DNA from: Bacillota bacterium
Lineage (GTDB): Bacteria; Bacillota; Clostridia; Oscillospirales; Oscillospiraceae
Length of the DNA: 64,000 nucleotides
Direction: 5' to 3'
Assembly: GCA_029225225.1 (NCBI GenBank)
Contig: JAQXWB010000077.1
Location: 1 to 64,000, forward strand
Of the stretch, positions 31,701-63,070 are shown one piece after another; the stretch's first letter is position 1; every line of letters starts with the position of its first letter. The notes beneath the pieces are model-generated. The model had not been told where the DNA came from. It did not search any database and was given only the letters and a program-made list of their open reading frames with translations. The translations under genes were made by a program, and so were the position numbers.

Positions 31701-31840
31701 TCCTCGTTACCTTTTAACGAAGTGTCATAGAGGTGTGCTACTTTTCATTATTCCTCTGTAAAGAAAAAAGTCGGAGTATTTACGCTCAGAGCTTGGTTTT
31801 GGTTCCGTTGGAAAAATGAATGTGTTTTCTTCAAAACCCA

Positions 31841-31869
31841 TTGACAAACATCGATGTGTTGCATATAAT
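31841..31869 (+). promoter_or_regulatory. consensus promoter with palindromic operator in spacer (ArsR gene)
   Basis: TTGACA-AACATCGATGTGTTGCA(17)-TATAAT; ACATCGATGT palindrome. Confidence 0.75.
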
Positions 31870-31890
31870 ATAGATAGATGTCGATGGGAG

Positions 31891-32214
31891 GTGACGAGCT
31901 TGGAGTTTGATGAAAAGAAGATTGCAATGATTTTTAAAGCGTTCTGCGATGAAAACCGTATTCGAATTCTGAAGCTTCTTGCAACAGGTGAAAAATGTGC
32001 TTGCAGATTGCTTGAAGAAATTAGTATTACGCAGCCTACAATGTCGCACCATATGAAAATTCTTTGCGATTCCGGCATTGTAGTTGGACGAAAAGAAGGC
32101 AAATGGATGCACTACTCCATTTCTCCGGAAGGAGCGGCAACTGCCGGAAAATATCTGAAGGAGCTTACCAAAATCACTTGTTCGGACAACGATCAGTCGT
32201 GTTGTGAAAAGTAA
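31891..32214 (+). CDS. ArsR family (HTH_5) transcriptional regulator
   Basis: FKAFCDENRIRILKLLATGEKCACRLLEEISITQPTMSHHMKILCDSGIVVGRKEGKWMHYSI; start at GTG/TTG after GGGAGG uncertain. Confidence 0.92.
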   Translation: MTSLEFDEKKIAMIFKAFCDENRIRILKLLATGEKCACRLLEEISITQPTMSHHMKILCDSGIVVGRKEGKWMHYSISPEGAATAGKYLKELTKITCSDNDQSCCEK

Positions 32215-32296
32215 GTCTATATGCTTTTCGGCTCGACTTTCTTTAAATTCATTACATTGACATATTTCAATTTGACAATCTGTGAAAGGATTCTGT

Positions 32297-33310
32297 ATGG
32301 AAGCAATAAAAACAGCTTGGGATTTCTTTCAAAATGAAATCCTCGGCATGCACTGGCTGAACAGACTGATCAGTACCGTTCTGAATGCTTGTGGATTGGA
32401 CACAACAAGCAGGGTTGGCGGCAGCGTGCAGTTCTTTCTCTATGATACCATTAAAATAATGGTTCTCTTGGGTATTTTGATTTTGATTATTTCATATATT
32501 CAAAGCTACTTCCCGCCGGAGAGAACAAAAAAGATACTGAGCAAATTTCGCGGGATGTGGGCAAATATTCTTGCCGCCCTGCTCGGAACAGTCACTCCGT
32601 TTTGCTCTTGCTCATCTATTCCGTTGTTTATTGGCTTTACAAGTGCAGGACTACCGCTTGGAGCAACCTTCTCTTTCCTGATTTCGTCTCCAATGGTTGA
32701 CCTCGGAAGCCTCCTGCTGTTAATGAGCATTTTCGGATGGAAGGTTGCAGTCATTTATGTTGTGCTCGGTCTTGTCATTGCCGTTGCCGGCGGTACGCTG
32801 ATTGAAAAACTGCACCTTGAAAATCAGGTGGAAGAATACATCCGTAACGGACGGTCACCGGATGTTCCGCCAGAGGAACTGCATTGTAAAGACCGATTGA
32901 AATATGCGTGGGAACAGGTTGTTGTCACCGTGAAAAAGGTGGCGCCTTATGTGCTTATCGGTGTAGGTATCGGAGCGATGATTCATAACTGGATTCCAGA
33001 AGAATTTGTTGTCAAGCTACTTGGGGATAACAACCCATTCGGTGTTCTTCTTGCTACAATTGCAGGCGTACCTATGTATGCTGATATATTCGGCACAATC
33101 CCGATTGCCGAAGCTTTGCTTGCAAAAGGCGCTTTGCTCGGCGTTGTCCTCTCATTTATGATGGCTGTTACAACGCTTTCTCTGCCGTCCATGATCATGC
33201 TGCGCAAAGCGGTAAAGCCGAAGCTACTCGGTATTTTCGTTGCAATCTGCACAATCGGAATTATCGTTGTCGGCTATTTCTTTAATCTGATACAGCCAAT
33301 GATTCTATAA
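32297..33310 (+). CDS. COG0701 / UPF0718 family permease (ArsP/YcgR-like)
   Basis: TVTPFCSCSSIPLFIGFTSAGLPLGATFSFLISSPMVD motif. Confidence 0.88.
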   Translation: MEAIKTAWDFFQNEILGMHWLNRLISTVLNACGLDTTSRVGGSVQFFLYDTIKIMVLLGILILIISYIQSYFPPERTKKILSKFRGMWANILAALLGTVTPFCSCSSIPLFIGFTSAGLPLGATFSFLISSPMVDLGSLLLLMSIFGWKVAVIYVVLGLVIAVAGGTLIEKLHLENQVEEYIRNGRSPDVPPEELHCKDRLKYAWEQVVVTVKKVAPYVLIGVGIGAMIHNWIPEEFVVKLLGDNNPFGVLLATIAGVPMYADIFGTIPIAEALLAKGALLGVVLSFMMAVTTLSLPSMIMLRKAVKPKLLGIFVAICTIGIIVVGYFFNLIQPMIL

Positions 33311-56403: not shown

Positions 56404-56460
56404 AAACTTTTTGACATAAGGACTTGCCGCCGCCGAATAGGCTGTTTCGGAGGTGGTTTG

Positions 56461-57147
56461 ATGCTGGGCGCCGCCGTATGGCTGACCATCAGCAGCATTC
56501 TCTATTCCCTCCGCCTGTCGAACGGGAGCGGCTCATTTCCGAAGCCCTTGAGCGCAAAGGAGGAGCAGCACTATCTGGAACTGGCGGCGCAGGGAGATCT
56601 GAATGCCCGCAACATACTCATCGAACGAAACCTACGCCTTGTGGCGCACATCATGAAAAAGTATTACACGCAGACTGCCGATCAGGAGGATCTGATTTCC
56701 ATCGGAACCATCGGACTCATCAAAGGAATTTCCACCTTTGACGCGTCGAAGGGTGCGCGTCTTGCAACCTATGCTGCACGATGCGTGGAAAACGAGATCC
56801 TGATGTATTTCCGCGGACAGCGGAAAAGTGCATCGGATGTCTCTTTGTCGGAATATATTGAAACAGGGAAGGACGGTACGGCGCTTTCTCTGATGGATGT
56901 GATTTGCTCGGACGAGGATCTGTTTGAGCAGATGTCCGACAAGGAGGTCTATGCCAAGCTCTATGAGAAGCTCGAAGAATGCCTGACACCGCGCGAGAAA
57001 CGCATTATTACCCTCCGCTACGGCATCGGCAACCGCAAGCCGCTGACGCAGCGTGAGATCGCCGACCTGTGCGGCATCAGCAGGAGCTATGTCAGCCGTA
57101 TTGAGAAAAAAGCACTGCAAAAATTAGAAAAGGCACTGTCAGAATAG
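56461..57147 (+). CDS. sigK: sporulation sigma factor SigK (with pro-sequence)
   Basis: MLGAAVWLTISSILYSLRLSNGSGSFPKPLSAKEEQHYLELAAQGD; regions 2 and 4 contiguous. Confidence 0.9.
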   Translation: MLGAAVWLTISSILYSLRLSNGSGSFPKPLSAKEEQHYLELAAQGDLNARNILIERNLRLVAHIMKKYYTQTADQEDLISIGTIGLIKGISTFDASKGARLATYAARCVENEILMYFRGQRKSASDVSLSEYIETGKDGTALSLMDVICSDEDLFEQMSDKEVYAKLYEKLEECLTPREKRIITLRYGIGNRKPLTQREIADLCGISRSYVSRIEKKALQKLEKALSE

Positions 57148-57159
57148 GAGAGAAACACC

Positions 57160-57732
57160 ATGCACGCATGGAAGCACTTTTGTACCATCACAAAGCATCG
57201 CTGGAAGGTGCGCGGCGGCTGTTTCCGCGTCGGGCTTTACTGGCGCGGACTTGTGCACGACCTTTCCAAGTATTCGCCGAGTGAATTTATCAGCGGCGCA
57301 AAATACTATCAGGGAACCCGCAGCCCAAACTCCCGAGAGCGCGAGGTCGTCGGCTATTCTGCCGCGTGGATGCACCATAAGGGCAGAAACAAGCACCACT
57401 ATGAGTATTGGACGGACATTGATATCAAAACACACACTTATCAGCCCGTTCAGATGCCGCGAAAGTATTTTATTGAGATGATCACGGACCGCGTTGCCGC
57501 CTGCAAGACCTATCACGGCAAGAACTACCGCGACGGTGACCCGCTGGACTATTTTATGCACGCTGCCGAGGGGCGTGACAGCGAGATGATGCACCCGCAG
57601 ACCAAGCGGGATCTGGTGTTTGTTCTGACGATGCTCCGCGACAAAGGAGAAAAAGAGACCTTCCGTTTTTTGCGGTCGGTTCGAAAGTCGGAGCAACCCA
57701 TCTGCCCGCCGGATACGGATGAGGCGGGTTAA
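57160..57732 (+). CDS. DUF5662 family protein
   Basis: HFCTITKHRWKV..CFRVGLYWRGLVHDLSKYSPSEF..AWMHHKGRNKHHYEYW. Confidence 0.85.
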   Translation: MHAWKHFCTITKHRWKVRGGCFRVGLYWRGLVHDLSKYSPSEFISGAKYYQGTRSPNSREREVVGYSAAWMHHKGRNKHHYEYWTDIDIKTHTYQPVQMPRKYFIEMITDRVAACKTYHGKNYRDGDPLDYFMHAAEGRDSEMMHPQTKRDLVFVLTMLRDKGEKETFRFLRSVRKSEQPICPPDTDEAG

Positions 57733-58674: not shown

Positions 58675-58708
58675 AAGCATCCGTATGATCATCACCATAC
58701 GGATGCTT
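58675..58708. terminator. terminator hairpin
   Basis: AAGCATCCGTATG-N8-CATACGGATGCTT. Confidence 0.7.
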
Positions 58709-58753: not shown

Positions 58754-59689
58754 TCAGAATGTCGCGACCTCATCGGCAGCGGGCTTGGCCGGTTCGACGG
58801 AAACTGCCGTCAGGATCGGACCGGTGCCGCGATAGAGGGCATGGAATCGCGTTTCTACCGTTGCGGTCACCATGACCCACTGGCGGGGATGCAGCTCGGC
58901 GGATTTTGCATACTTGCAGGGCATTCCCATAAACTGAATGTCCTCCACGCAGCAGGTCATTACAAAACGGCCGGGCGCGAAGTAGCCGTCGCGATCCTTT
59001 TTTAACCGCGCCACCTGCGCCTTAAAGCGGACGGTCTTACCGTTGTACTTCTTCGGCTCTTCATTGATGTCGCGGAACCAGAGCGCGTAATCCTCGTCTT
59101 CGATCTCAATCACGGGCGCATTGATGTCAAAGGGAAGCGGGTCTTCGATCTCGTCAAATTCCGTCTTGCCGTTCGTATATTCGTAGAGAATGCCGACCCT
59201 GCGGTTGAGCGCGCGGGCAAGCTTGTGCAGCGGCATGATATCCGTACCGGCGGGCAGACGGTTGAAAACGACCATCTCGCAGCCGGACAGCTTGTCCACC
59301 ACCAGCGAACGGAGGTTGGAATTATAGCTTTGGATTGTTGTGCCGTCGGCAAACATGACCTCCTGCGCAATCTGCCAGTCCTGCGGCATCTTTTGATAAA
59401 AGTCCCCGACGAGCTGCATTCCGTTTAGTTCCACAACCACGCGTTCCGCGCGATGCTTTTGCAGCAGGGCGGCAAGCTCCTGCGTTGTGATCTCGTCCTG
59501 CGCGATGACCTCGGGATAGACTTTCTGATAGGGATAGGCGGAGACGTCATATTCCTCCTCGCCCTCCTCGCAGATGAGCAGAAGGGTGCGCTCGCCTGCG
59601 TTAAAGCGGGTGTCACACAGCGTCTCCTGAATGAATTTCGTTTTCCCGGCATCTAAAAAGCCGGTAAACGCATAGACCGGAATCGGCAT
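58754..59689 (-). CDS. COG0523-type GTPase fused to YcgQ/TIGR03943-like C-terminal domain
   Basis: VYAFTGFLDAGKTKFIQETL; C-term KYNGKTVRFKAQVARLKKDRDGYFAPGRFVMTCCVEDIQFMGMPC. Confidence 0.78.
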   Translation of the reverse strand: MPIPVYAFTGFLDAGKTKFIQETLCDTRFNAGERTLLLICEEGEEEYDVSAYPYQKVYPEVIAQDEITTQELAALLQKHRAERVVVELNGMQLVGDFYQKMPQDWQIAQEVMFADGTTIQSYNSNLRSLVVDKLSGCEMVVFNRLPAGTDIMPLHKLARALNRRVGILYEYTNGKTEFDEIEDPLPFDINAPVIEIEDEDYALWFRDINEEPKKYNGKTVRFKAQVARLKKDRDGYFAPGRFVMTCCVEDIQFMGMPCKYAKSAELHPRQWVMVTATVETRFHALYRGTGPILTAVSVEPAKPAADEVATF

Positions 59690-59701: not shown

Positions 59702-60844
59702 TTATACGCCGAAGAGGGCGGCAACGGCGCTTTCGTTCAGCTTCGAGCCGATCACGCACAATCTGCCGGTGACCTCTGCGGTGCCGTTTCTGACATCCAT
59801 TTCGCCCGGTACATGGTCAAAATGCAGCCATGTGCCGTCTGTTGCCTGCACAATACCCTTGGCGCGCAGAACGATACCGTAAGCCTCCTCATTATCCAAT
59901 GCGGAGAGTGCCGCCTTGATCTCCTCAGCGGTGAATTTCTTGTGCGTCTCAACGCCCCAGCTTTGGAAGATCTCGTCGGCGTCATGGCCGTGATGATGAT
60001 GGTGGTGATGATGCTCGTGTTCTTCCTCATGGTCATGGTGGCAATGCTCGTCATGGTCATGGTGGCAATGCTCGTCGTGGTCGTGATGATGCTCATGCTC
60101 CTCGTCGTGGTCATGGTGGCAATGTTCGTCATGGTCATGATGGTGATGCTCGTGCTCCTCATGGTCATGATGGCAGCAGCAGTCGTCGTCCTCGTCTTCT
60201 TCTTGCGCGCGGGCGTGCTCAATCATCTCGGAAAGCTCATCCGTCAGAGAATGCTGATGCTGCATGGCTTCCAAAATCTGCTTGCCGTTCAACTGCTCCC
60301 ACGGGGTCGTGATAATGACTGCCTTTTGGTTGTGCTCCCGCAGCAGGGAAATTGCGGCGTCTAACTTTTCCTCGGAGATCGTTGCCGTGCGGCTAAGGAT
60401 GATGGCGGAAGCCGTCTCGATCTGGTTGGAGTAGAATTCACCGAAATTCTTCAGATAGACCTTGCACTTTGTCGCGTCTGCAACGGTCACAAAGCAGCCG
60501 AGCTGCACATCTTCCGTCGCTACGCGCTGCACTGCGCCGATGACGTCGCTGAGTTTACCGACGCCGGACGGCTCAATAAGAATGCGATCAGGGTGATATT
60601 CGGAGATGACCTGCTTCAGCGCCTTGCCGAAATCTCCGACAAGGGAACAGCAGATGCAGCCGGAATTCATTTCGTTCACTTGAATTCCTGCATCCTTCAT
60701 GAAACCGCCGTCGATACCGATCTCGCCGAATTCGTTTTCAATCAGCACGATCTGCTCGCCGACATACGCCTCACGGATCATCTTCTTGATCAGCGTGGTC
60801 TTGCCCGCGCCCAAAAAACCGGAATAAATATCAATCGTGGTCAT
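59702..60844 (-). CDS. COG0523 (CobW/ZNG1-like) GTPase with His-rich linker
   Basis: IYSGFLGAGKTTLIKKMI, GCICCSL (CxCC), (HDHDEHCHHDHDEEHEHHH)n linker, CobW C-terminal domain. Confidence 0.92.
   Translation of the reverse strand: MTTIDIYSGFLGAGKTTLIKKMIREAYVGEQIVLIENEFGEIGIDGGFMKDAGIQVNEMNSGCICCSLVGDFGKALKQVISEYHPDRILIEPSGVGKLSDVIGAVQRVATEDVQLGCFVTVADATKCKVYLKNFGEFYSNQIETASAIILSRTATISEEKLDAAISLLREHNQKAVIITTPWEQLNGKQILEAMQHQHSLTDELSEMIEHARAQEEDEDDDCCCHHDHEEHEHHHHDHDEHCHHDHDEEHEHHHDHDEHCHHDHDEHCHHDHEEEHEHHHHHHHHGHDADEIFQSWGVETHKKFTAEEIKAALSALDNEEAYGIVLRAKGIVQATDGTWLHFDHVPGEMDVRNGTAEVTGRLCVIGSKLNESAVAALFGV
59983..60184 (-). repeat. His/Asp/Glu-coding tandem repeat within COG0523 gene
   Basis: reiterated TCATGGTCATGGTGGCAATGCTCG units coding HDHDEHCHH. 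Confidence 0.85.
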
Positions 60845-61042
60845 AAATCTCTATACTTCCTTTCCAATGATAACTCTCGACCCTCCGTCGTTCCGACGGG
60901 TTTGTCTTTGAATCTCTAAACATATATTATAACACAATTTTCCAAAATACGCAAGCAAATACGGCGCTTCATTTGAGTTTTTGAAAAAGCTGTTGCTTTT
61001 TTTTCGTAAGCTGATATACTGAAAAGGAAAGAGGAAGGGACG

Positions 61043-63070
61043 GTGAACTGTGTTTTGCGGATTCGGGCGTATTTTTCTGCGGAGAATATGAAAAAGCAAT
61101 GGAGCCGTGAGAATTATCGCATTTTGTTTCTGTACTTTGTATTCTCCGTTCTCCTAAACGGAGTGATCGAATTGCTGGCGCGCCGCTCCCTGCTTGACAC
61201 CTTGTCCTTCTGCATCGGGAAGCCGTGGGTGTTTCTCTACGGTGCGTTTCTGATCTTCACTGTATTGTCCTTCTCGCTGCTGTTTCCGAAACGACGCTTT
61301 TGGTTTTTCCTGTTTGCGGCGGTTTGGTTTGGGCTTGCCGTGACAGATTTTATCCTGCTGACCTTCCGCTCCATGCCGCTGACCGCATCCGACATTTGGC
61401 TGATGGCGTTTGTTCGGGATATTTTTGAAAAGTATCTCAGCCGTGTGGAACTGTTTTTCTTGATTTTAGGAATCGCTGCCCTGCTCGGCTTGATCTTTTT
61501 CCTTTGGACGCGCGCGAGAAGGTTTCCGTGCATACCGTGCTTTTCCGTGGTTTCGATTCTTCTTTCTTGCCTTCTTCTGTTTGCCCTGACCGAGCTTTTT
61601 GTACGCATTGATGTTTTAGACAAAACGAATGCGTTTTCCAGCCTGCCCCACGCGTATCATGAAAACGGATTTGTCTATTGCTTCTCCGCAAGTCTGGTCA
61701 CTGGCGGTGTTGACGAACCGGAGGAGTATTCTCCCCATGAGGTCGAGGAGATCATCGACACACAGCGTGACCTGCCGCCGACCAAAACGGATTTGCCGAA
61801 TCTTGTTTTTGTGCAGCTCGAATCATTCTTTGACGCAAATTACCTGAATGACCTGATATTGTCCGAGAATCCTGTGCAGAATTTTGAAGCGTTAAAGGCA
61901 AACTATCCGAGCGGGCTGCTCTCCGTGCCCTGCGTCGGCGCGGGCACGGCGAACACGGAATTTGAGGTTCTGACAGGAATGAATCTGAGTCATTTCGGCG
62001 TGGGGGAATATCCTTATATGACCATTGTCAATGCTACCGCTTCGGAGTCCATTGCCTTCACCCTTGAACAGATCGGTTATGCGACGCACGCCATCCATAA
62101 TAATAACGCAACCTTCTATGACCGCCATATCGTCTATGCCAATCTCGGCTTTCAAACCTTTACATCGCTGGAATACATGAACGATGTGCAATACAATCCA
62201 CGCGGCTGGGCGGATGACAGCGTGCTGACCGGTGAAATCTGTAAGGCGTTGGCTGCGACGGAGGAGAAGGATTTTGTCTTTGCTGTCACCGTTCAGCCCC
62301 ATGGAAAATATCCAAGCGAACCGCTTCCCGACGCGCAGATCATAGGCGTAGCAGGTATGGAGGATGAGGCGCGGAAAAACGGCTTGGAATACTATCTCTA
62401 CCAGTTGAAGGAGTGCGATGCCTTTGTCGCGGAGCTGACGCAGGCGCTTCGGGATTTCGATGAGCCGACCGTTGTTGTGTTTTATGGGGATCATCTGCCG
62501 AGCTTTAATTTTCAACAGGAGGAGCTGTCCTGCGGCAGCGTGCAGACGACAGAGTATGTGATCTGGTCGAATTTCCCGCTTTCGGAAAACACCAAGCGTG
62601 ATCTGCAAACCTACCAGCTCGGTGCCTATGTCATGGATCTGTGCGGCATTCATGAAGGAGCGATTTTCCGCCTGCATCAGAGCTATGATTACGCAGGCGA
62701 CAGCAGCGCGGCATATCAGCAGGCGCTGGAGGTGCTGGAATATGACATCCTCTCAGGCGAGCAATATTATGCCGAAAACGGCGCAACGCCGCAGCCGACG
62801 GATATGCACTTTGGTGTAGAGGAGGTCTGTATTACCGCCCTCACGCAGGAGGAGGACGCGCTGCGTGTTTCAGGCGAACATTTTACGCCCTACAGTGTTG
62901 TGTTTGTCAACGATATCGGCTATGAAACGACCTATCTCTCCGAAACGGCCTTGCTTGTGGAGGGGCTTGTCCTTGCACCGGAGGATGTTGTTGCCGTTGC
63001 GCAGGTTTCCGCCGCAGATGCATTGGAAATATTAAGTATGAGCAAATCGTTTGTGTTTGCTCAATCATGA
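61043..63070 (+). CDS. LTA synthase-like sulfatase-family membrane protein
   Basis: 5 N-terminal TMs; LVFVQLESFFDAN, GAGTANTEFEVLTGMN, VVFYGDHLPSF. Confidence 0.92.
   Translation: MNCVLRIRAYFSAENMKKQWSRENYRILFLYFVFSVLLNGVIELLARRSLLDTLSFCIGKPWVFLYGAFLIFTVLSFSLLFPKRRFWFFLFAAVWFGLAVTDFILLTFRSMPLTASDIWLMAFVRDIFEKYLSRVELFFLILGIAALLGLIFFLWTRARRFPCIPCFSVVSILLSCLLLFALTELFVRIDVLDKTNAFSSLPHAYHENGFVYCFSASLVTGGVDEPEEYSPHEVEEIIDTQRDLPPTKTDLPNLVFVQLESFFDANYLNDLILSENPVQNFEALKANYPSGLLSVPCVGAGTANTEFEVLTGMNLSHFGVGEYPYMTIVNATASESIAFTLEQIGYATHAIHNNNATFYDRHIVYANLGFQTFTSLEYMNDVQYNPRGWADDSVLTGEICKALAATEEKDFVFAVTVQPHGKYPSEPLPDAQIIGVAGMEDEARKNGLEYYLYQLKECDAFVAELTQALRDFDEPTVVVFYGDHLPSFNFQQEELSCGSVQTTEYVIWSNFPLSENTKRDLQTYQLGAYVMDLCGIHEGAIFRLHQSYDYAGDSSAAYQQALEVLEYDILSGEQYYAENGATPQPTDMHFGVEEVCITALTQEEDALRVSGEHFTPYSVVFVNDIGYETTYLSETALLVEGLVLAPEDVVAVAQVSAADALEILSMSKSFVFAQS

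Follow-up and report, generated by a model that had tools for sequence, protein, structure and literature searches.

A GTPase fused to the C-terminal domain of YcgQ and its His-rich COG0523 partner in Clostridia

COG0523 proteins are chaperones for Zn, Co or Fe (PMC9164220), while YcgQ/YcgR and the streptococcal ScfA/ScfB are conserved and little-understood membrane pairs that affect fitness and stress survival (PMC5584981). A third related system is the BAS1632 operon of B. anthracis, an ArsP_1 permease operon that is bound by Zur, has an upstream region in common with the COG0523 gene yciC beside it, and has been likened to the two-component permease complex of S. mutans (PMC6336718). The window, as we call the whole 64,000-nucleotide stretch of DNA analysed here, comes from a gut bacterium of the Oscillospiraceae and contains a two-gene operon in which the second gene encodes a G3E/cobW-type GTPase joined to a DUF1980_C domain (FUS), and the first a cobW protein with a histidine-rich stretch (HIS; Table 1). 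From the end of HIS to the start of FUS there are 12 bases. Like the COG0523/G3E proteins YjiA, ZagA/YciC, ZigA and CobW, FUS has a cobW match above cut-off, a Walker A motif, an ExxG-type Walker B and the fold of 1nij; unlike them it lacks CxCC, CobW_C and NKxD, and has DUF1980_C in the C-terminal place. With YcgQ, ScfB and the TIGR03943 proteins it shares the C-terminal PF21537 domain and its MTCC motif, but neither the DUF1980 transmembrane half, nor an adjoining COG0701 permease, nor a TIGR03943 score above the cut-off. The families are known and, judged by sequence, their combination appears new, namely a CxCC-less G3E subfamily placed either on the YcgQ C-terminal domain or on a YcgR-type permease. 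No published account of a GTPase-DUF1980_C fusion was found in the literature searched, although an earlier description may exist, and none of the words fused, fusion and permease appears in the main text of the 2009 COG0523 survey.

Table 1. Positions of the FUS and HIS features in the window, and the loci of related permease fusions
Feature	Position or loci	Strand	Residues or length	Basis or remark
FUS, G3E/cobW-type GTPase + DUF1980_C (YcgQ C-terminal) fusion	58754..59689	(-)	311 aa	ATG start
GTPase domain of FUS	59255..59680	(-)	4-145	Pfam, motifs, YjiA/HypB/UreG fold match
DUF1980_C domain of FUS, predicted OB fold	58784..59122	(-)	190-302	Pfam and model
Invariant Cys pair of the MTCC motif in FUS	58949..58954	(-)	C246-C247	Alignment
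Frequent third Cys of FUS	58913-58915	(-)	C259	Alignment
Terminator-like stem-loop downstream of FUS	58675..58708	(-)		Consensus match only
HIS, cobW + CobW_C protein with His-rich stretch	59702..60844	(-)	380 aa	First operon gene
CxCC metal motif of HIS (CICC)	60647..60658	(-)	63-66	Sequence
His/Asp/Glu/Cys-rich insert of HIS	59981..60181	(-)	about 222-288	Sequence
GTPase::COG0701-permease fusions ahead of TIGR03943	L233-L240, L242-L245, L248-L250		509-551 aa	
Further GTPase::COG0701-permease fusions	L150-L152		526-596 aa	

Pfam places cobW on residues 4-145 of FUS (23.9 bits, cut-off 20.7) and DUF1980_C (PF21537) in its C-terminal part at 71.8 bits, against a gathering cut-off of 25.9 (E 6e-20). 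The NCBIfam model TIGR03943 gave 85.0 bits, narrowly below its cut-off of 88.8 (E 4.6e-24), and the match covers profile positions 93-216 of 221, which is the C-terminal half only. The DUF1980 membrane half gave no Pfam match in FUS, no hydrophobic segment was found, and FUS is predicted to be a soluble protein with no transmembrane segment. An ordinary CobW_C as the C-terminal domain is ruled out, as Pfam returned no such match up to E 10 and an OB fold is predicted there instead. The initial annotation had likened this module to the C-terminal domain of YcgQ/TIGR03943, joined to a cytosolic GTPase, and the domain matches and the lack of a hydrophobic segment bear it out. Of the profiles it named, TIGR03943 reaches the region, and DUF1980 is represented by DUF1980_C and not by the membrane half. 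It had also named two outcomes that would speak against it, a silent TIGR03943 profile and an ordinary CobW_C fold; with TIGR03943 matched and CobW_C not, neither was seen.

The fusion is real. Relatives have the same two-domain frame in 86 ORFs, with a few loci read twice, and every one of these has the CC pair; the fusion is also found in hundreds of named genomes, with 578 confirmed relatives. It is therefore not an artefact of assembly or reading frame, and the architecture of FUS is near certain. Among the 86, a hydrophobic segment was flagged once, within an ORF start that had been extended too far.

Walker A of FUS reads GFLDAGKT and is present in 24 of 24 FUS rows tested. A Walker-B-like ExNG is located at E87, and the NKxD guanine motif is missing, with FNR at the expected position and its N143 and R144 near-invariant. 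No variation was seen across 34 diverse fusions at G10, G15 and K16 of Walker A, at E41 and G43 of the switch region, or at E87, N89, N125, D207, K218, C246 and C247. Because the G4 motif is not NKxD in HIS either, specificity for GTP is unproven. CxCC is the metal motif of COG0523. It occurs in 25/25 HIS rows and 4/4 other COG0523 rows, and in none of 24 FUS rows, 86 fusion ORFs or 20 rows of the permease-type GTPases described below. The CC pair, located in the C-terminal half in all 86 fusion ORFs, is likewise present in 21/21 TIGR03943-type ORFs (some loci read twice) and in 0/9 short single-anchor DUF1980_C paralogues not near a permease. From these counts, the metal-type cysteines sit on the OB domain where the GTPase is without them. 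The FUS GTPase is a divergent G3E/cobW member without CxCC. HIS carries cobW (121.7 bits), CxCC and CobW_C (34 bits against 22), the features by which a COG0523 metallochaperone GTPase is recognised, and is probably one; of the features expected of such a GTPase, FUS has cobW with Walker A.

An AlphaFold2 model of FUS, built with 45 named relatives, has a mean pLDDT of 90.1 and a pTM of 0.63; the domains appear well modelled, and their mutual placement is uncertain at that pTM. Among PDB folds it comes closest to YjiA (1nij), a COG0523 protein; HypB and UreG are next, and OB-fold proteins rank lower. Folded alone, the C-terminal domain reached a pLDDT of 89.7 and a pTM of 0.83 and matched the OB folds of AsnRS/AspRS anticodon-binding domains, OBodies, Ten1 and RPA subunits; an OB fold is therefore the prediction for DUF1980_C. 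Such a match does not imply nucleic-acid binding. Sequence search of solved structures with FUS gave no meaningful match.

Upstream of HIS, Rfam identified no riboswitch or other known RNA; the HIS leader contains a GC-rich hairpin at window positions 60884-60900, itself without an Rfam match. Divergent from the operon at 61043-63070 is a gene for an LTA-synthase-like membrane protein with a sulfatase domain, conserved at that site in some congeners only. On the 3' side of FUS, a DUF5662 gene (57160-57732, opposite strand) holds its position across the genus and is adjoined by a sigma-factor-like gene (56458-57147).

The pairing of HIS and FUS is constant. Among 60 genomes, comprising the window's own and 59 relatives, 28 have both genes and 32 have neither, the same 28 holding for each gene when FUS is counted by strong matches (short or weak DUF1980_C matches in G026, G037 and G039 left out) and HIS by orthologous matches (weak paralogues at 31-40% identity left out). 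HIS lies directly upstream of FUS on the same strand at all 80 named-genome loci, which are mostly from Oscillospiraceae and other Clostridia MAGs. A set of 83 whole-genome loci, overlapping partly in organisms with the named-genome set, has HIS beside FUS in 78 (8 of them downstream) and another COG0523 protein in 3; the remaining 2 have no COG0523 partner, one being cut by a contig end. In these 83 loci FUS and its partner usually overlap or lie a few bases apart. All 78 HIS partners are histidine-rich, defined as at least 12 His within 60 residues. In a sample of 391 genomes the fusion was found at 57 loci, in many families of the class Clostridia. A sample of 300 genomes of the phylum gave no full-length fusion in other classes, where matches extend over the C-terminal domain only. 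HIS and FUS together are an old unit of the Clostridia. Across families no third gene is conserved beside them, and no enzyme gene is kept. The only other gene clusters that recurred did not point to a client: one was an antisense artefact produced by the His-rich stretch, and the others were ABC exporters and a gene resembling an aminotransferase, both identified by eye from their sequence.

The same GTPase subfamily is found on membrane proteins. At 15 of the 20 stand-alone TIGR03943 loci of the class (L233-L252), the gene directly upstream encodes a FUS-like GTPase and a COG0701 permease in one protein (Table 1), and in most of the 15 a HIS-like CobW gene precedes it. Pfam confirmed both domains in the four permease fusions scanned, with cobW at 26-47 bits and ArsP_1 at 134-200 bits. 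Two further loci (L246, L247) encode the four parts separately, with CobW first, then the GTPase, the permease and TIGR03943, and 3 of the 20 have a plain permease with TIGR03943. These membrane operons share with HIS-FUS the GTPase subfamily, a related CobW gene and the same CC domain, and their gene order is that of HIS-FUS once the membrane parts are left out. They differ in being membrane-bound, in having the GTPase on the permease, and in a CobW partner that is mostly not His-rich, the threshold being reached in only 2 of 15. Genomes G305, G224 and G299 contain a membrane operon as well as a soluble HIS-FUS operon. Having a chelating region of its own, the soluble unit would suit buffering or storage rather than transport. 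In the literature searched there is no account of a nucleotide-binding domain on the COG0701 permease family. The B. anthracis BAS1632 operon resembles these Clostridia modules in its ArsP_1 permease operon beside yciC, yet no GTPase fusion is reported for it, and it has Zur boxes where none was found at HIS (PMC6336718).

TIGR03943 proteins of the class mostly have three hydrophobic segments ahead of the CC domain. Lys and Arg are often richest in the second loop, by which the CC domain would lie outside the membrane. For B. subtilis YcgQ the authors list four transmembrane segments, and its mVenus fusion was tracked in live cells, which, provided that the tag is at the C-terminus, favours a cytosolic location for that end (PMC6120080); two segments were predicted by the authors for ScfB (PMC5584981). 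A separate group of DUF1980_C proteins (L078, L081, L082, L085, L087-L091) is 150-224 aa long, with one N-terminal hydrophobic segment, no CC pair and no adjoining permease. These short proteins probably have a different function on the same fold.

In trees, HIS and other COG0523 proteins are set apart from a clade (support 98/97) that unites the GTPases of FUS, of the permease fusions and of the free forms, and the FUS GTPases form a single clade within it (99/98). Nearest to FUS are the permease-fused GTPases of L238-L240, L244, L243 and L248-L250 (87/90). In the DUF1980_C tree the same loci and L150 join FUS against other TIGR03943 proteins (98/94), and by this agreement one kind of membrane operon is indicated by both halves of FUS. 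Most simply, these trees would mean that the contiguous membrane part, made up of the permease and the transmembrane half of TIGR03943, was lost from CobW/GTPase::permease/TIGR03943 to give HIS/GTPase::DUF1980_C. An origin of FUS inside the permease-fusion group is weakly supported at 87/90; a tree holding all permease-type GTPases together was not rejected (AU test p 0.317) on a set that includes several long branches; the direction from membrane to soluble is not proven by these sequences.

What the sequences establish is the architecture, the constant pairing, the GTPase subfamily common to both operon types and the fact that the cysteine motifs sit in different places; from there we infer how the pair may work. 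On balance we think it somewhat probable that FUS and HIS are a two-component cytosolic metal-transfer unit, the soluble counterpart of a membrane metal transporter assisted by a GTPase, and probably derived from such a transporter. On the sequence side stand HIS with CxCC and a His-rich chelating region, and FUS with a P-loop and a CC-bearing OB domain, without CxCC. Much as HypB and UreG form homodimers, the GTPase domains of HIS and FUS would form a nucleotide-dependent heterodimer. Metal held by HIS would move, as nucleotide is hydrolysed, onto the CC site in the OB domain of FUS, which would then supply client proteins or a store, for buffering or delivery. In the membrane version the second GTPase is part of the COG0701 permease protein and the CC domain belongs to the membrane protein TIGR03943, so that the metal would go to or from the permease. 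A bolder and more tentative proposal is a metal-transfer machine in which two non-equivalent G3E GTPases, one with CxCC and one without, act as an obligate heterodimer, and whose membrane form (GTPase::permease + TIGR03943) and soluble form (GTPase::DUF1980_C) are interchangeable. The membrane form might then be a nucleotide-gated COG0701 metal transporter, a kind not described in the literature searched.

FUS may alternatively be regulatory, with the CC-bearing OB domain sensing free metal and gating the GTPase cycle of HIS, the sole true chaperone. Obligate pairing with HIS would suit such a role, as would the absence of CxCC, the degenerate G4 and the greater divergence of FUS relative to HIS. 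However, FUS never varies at the P-loop lysine, the Walker-B-like glutamate or the switch residues, and its CC domain also occurs in transporter partners, for which metal transfer is no less natural a role; we consider a regulatory FUS unlikely.

Under the transfer reading, the metal and its direction between HIS and FUS are likewise ones that we infer. Zinc is the most likely metal, with moderate confidence by analogy, being favoured by the COG0523 literature and by the Zur-bound permease operon of B. anthracis. A Zur box search of 149 regions upstream of HIS, with a consensus from Firmicutes only, gave no enrichment over shuffles, and so the case for zinc comes from the Bacillus relatives and from COG0523 in general. 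Handling of cobalt, nickel, iron or copper, for example by an insertase for one enzyme, would agree with the range of metals known for COG0523 proteins (PMC9164220), and the relatives of ArsP_1 include a Cu/Zn exporter model, with a match below its cut-off. Yet an enzyme gene is not among the conserved neighbours, and for the permease module the strongest regulatory connection is to Zur, making a metal other than zinc rather improbable. Taken by sequence, the two operon types suggest a single modular machine that comes in a membrane version and a soluble version and probably handles zinc.

The window also encodes a COG0701 permease, which the initial annotation had noted and tied to FUS. It is a true ArsP_1 member (210 bits, Pfam). 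Its longest ORF (32282-33310) starts at 32282 and not at 32297. A gene for an ArsR-family regulator (31816-32214) lies ahead of it. None of 16 same-genus genomes has a COG0701 permease, while 14 of those 16 have the fusion; more widely, the permease is present in 3 of 28 genomes with the fusion and 7 of 32 without, and none lies within 6 kb of the fusion at the 80 named-genome loci. The phyletic pattern, those 80 loci and the ArsR neighbour rule out the window permease as the partner of FUS. That HIS-FUS serves a permease of the same genome, with FUS as a cytosolic substitute for TIGR03943, would draw on the GTPase::permease fusions and TIGR03943/permease operons elsewhere, but is contradicted by these same observations and is very improbable. 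The suggested link between metal GTPases and the permease family therefore stands, on the strong independent evidence of the fusions followed by TIGR03943 in other Clostridia, and fails for the permease of the window. The ArsR and ArsP_1/COG0701 genes (31816-33310) resemble an ordinary metal(loid)-responsive efflux pair, possibly acquired, as it is absent from all congeners searched.

The fusions tie the YcgQ/YcgR-type pair to metal-type GTPases and give it a testable job, in which metal transfer through the CC-bearing OB domain would be nucleotide-assisted. A second, CxCC-less G3E subfamily travels with a classical COG0523 partner, and the idea that metallochaperone GTPases may act as heterodimers thereby becomes testable.
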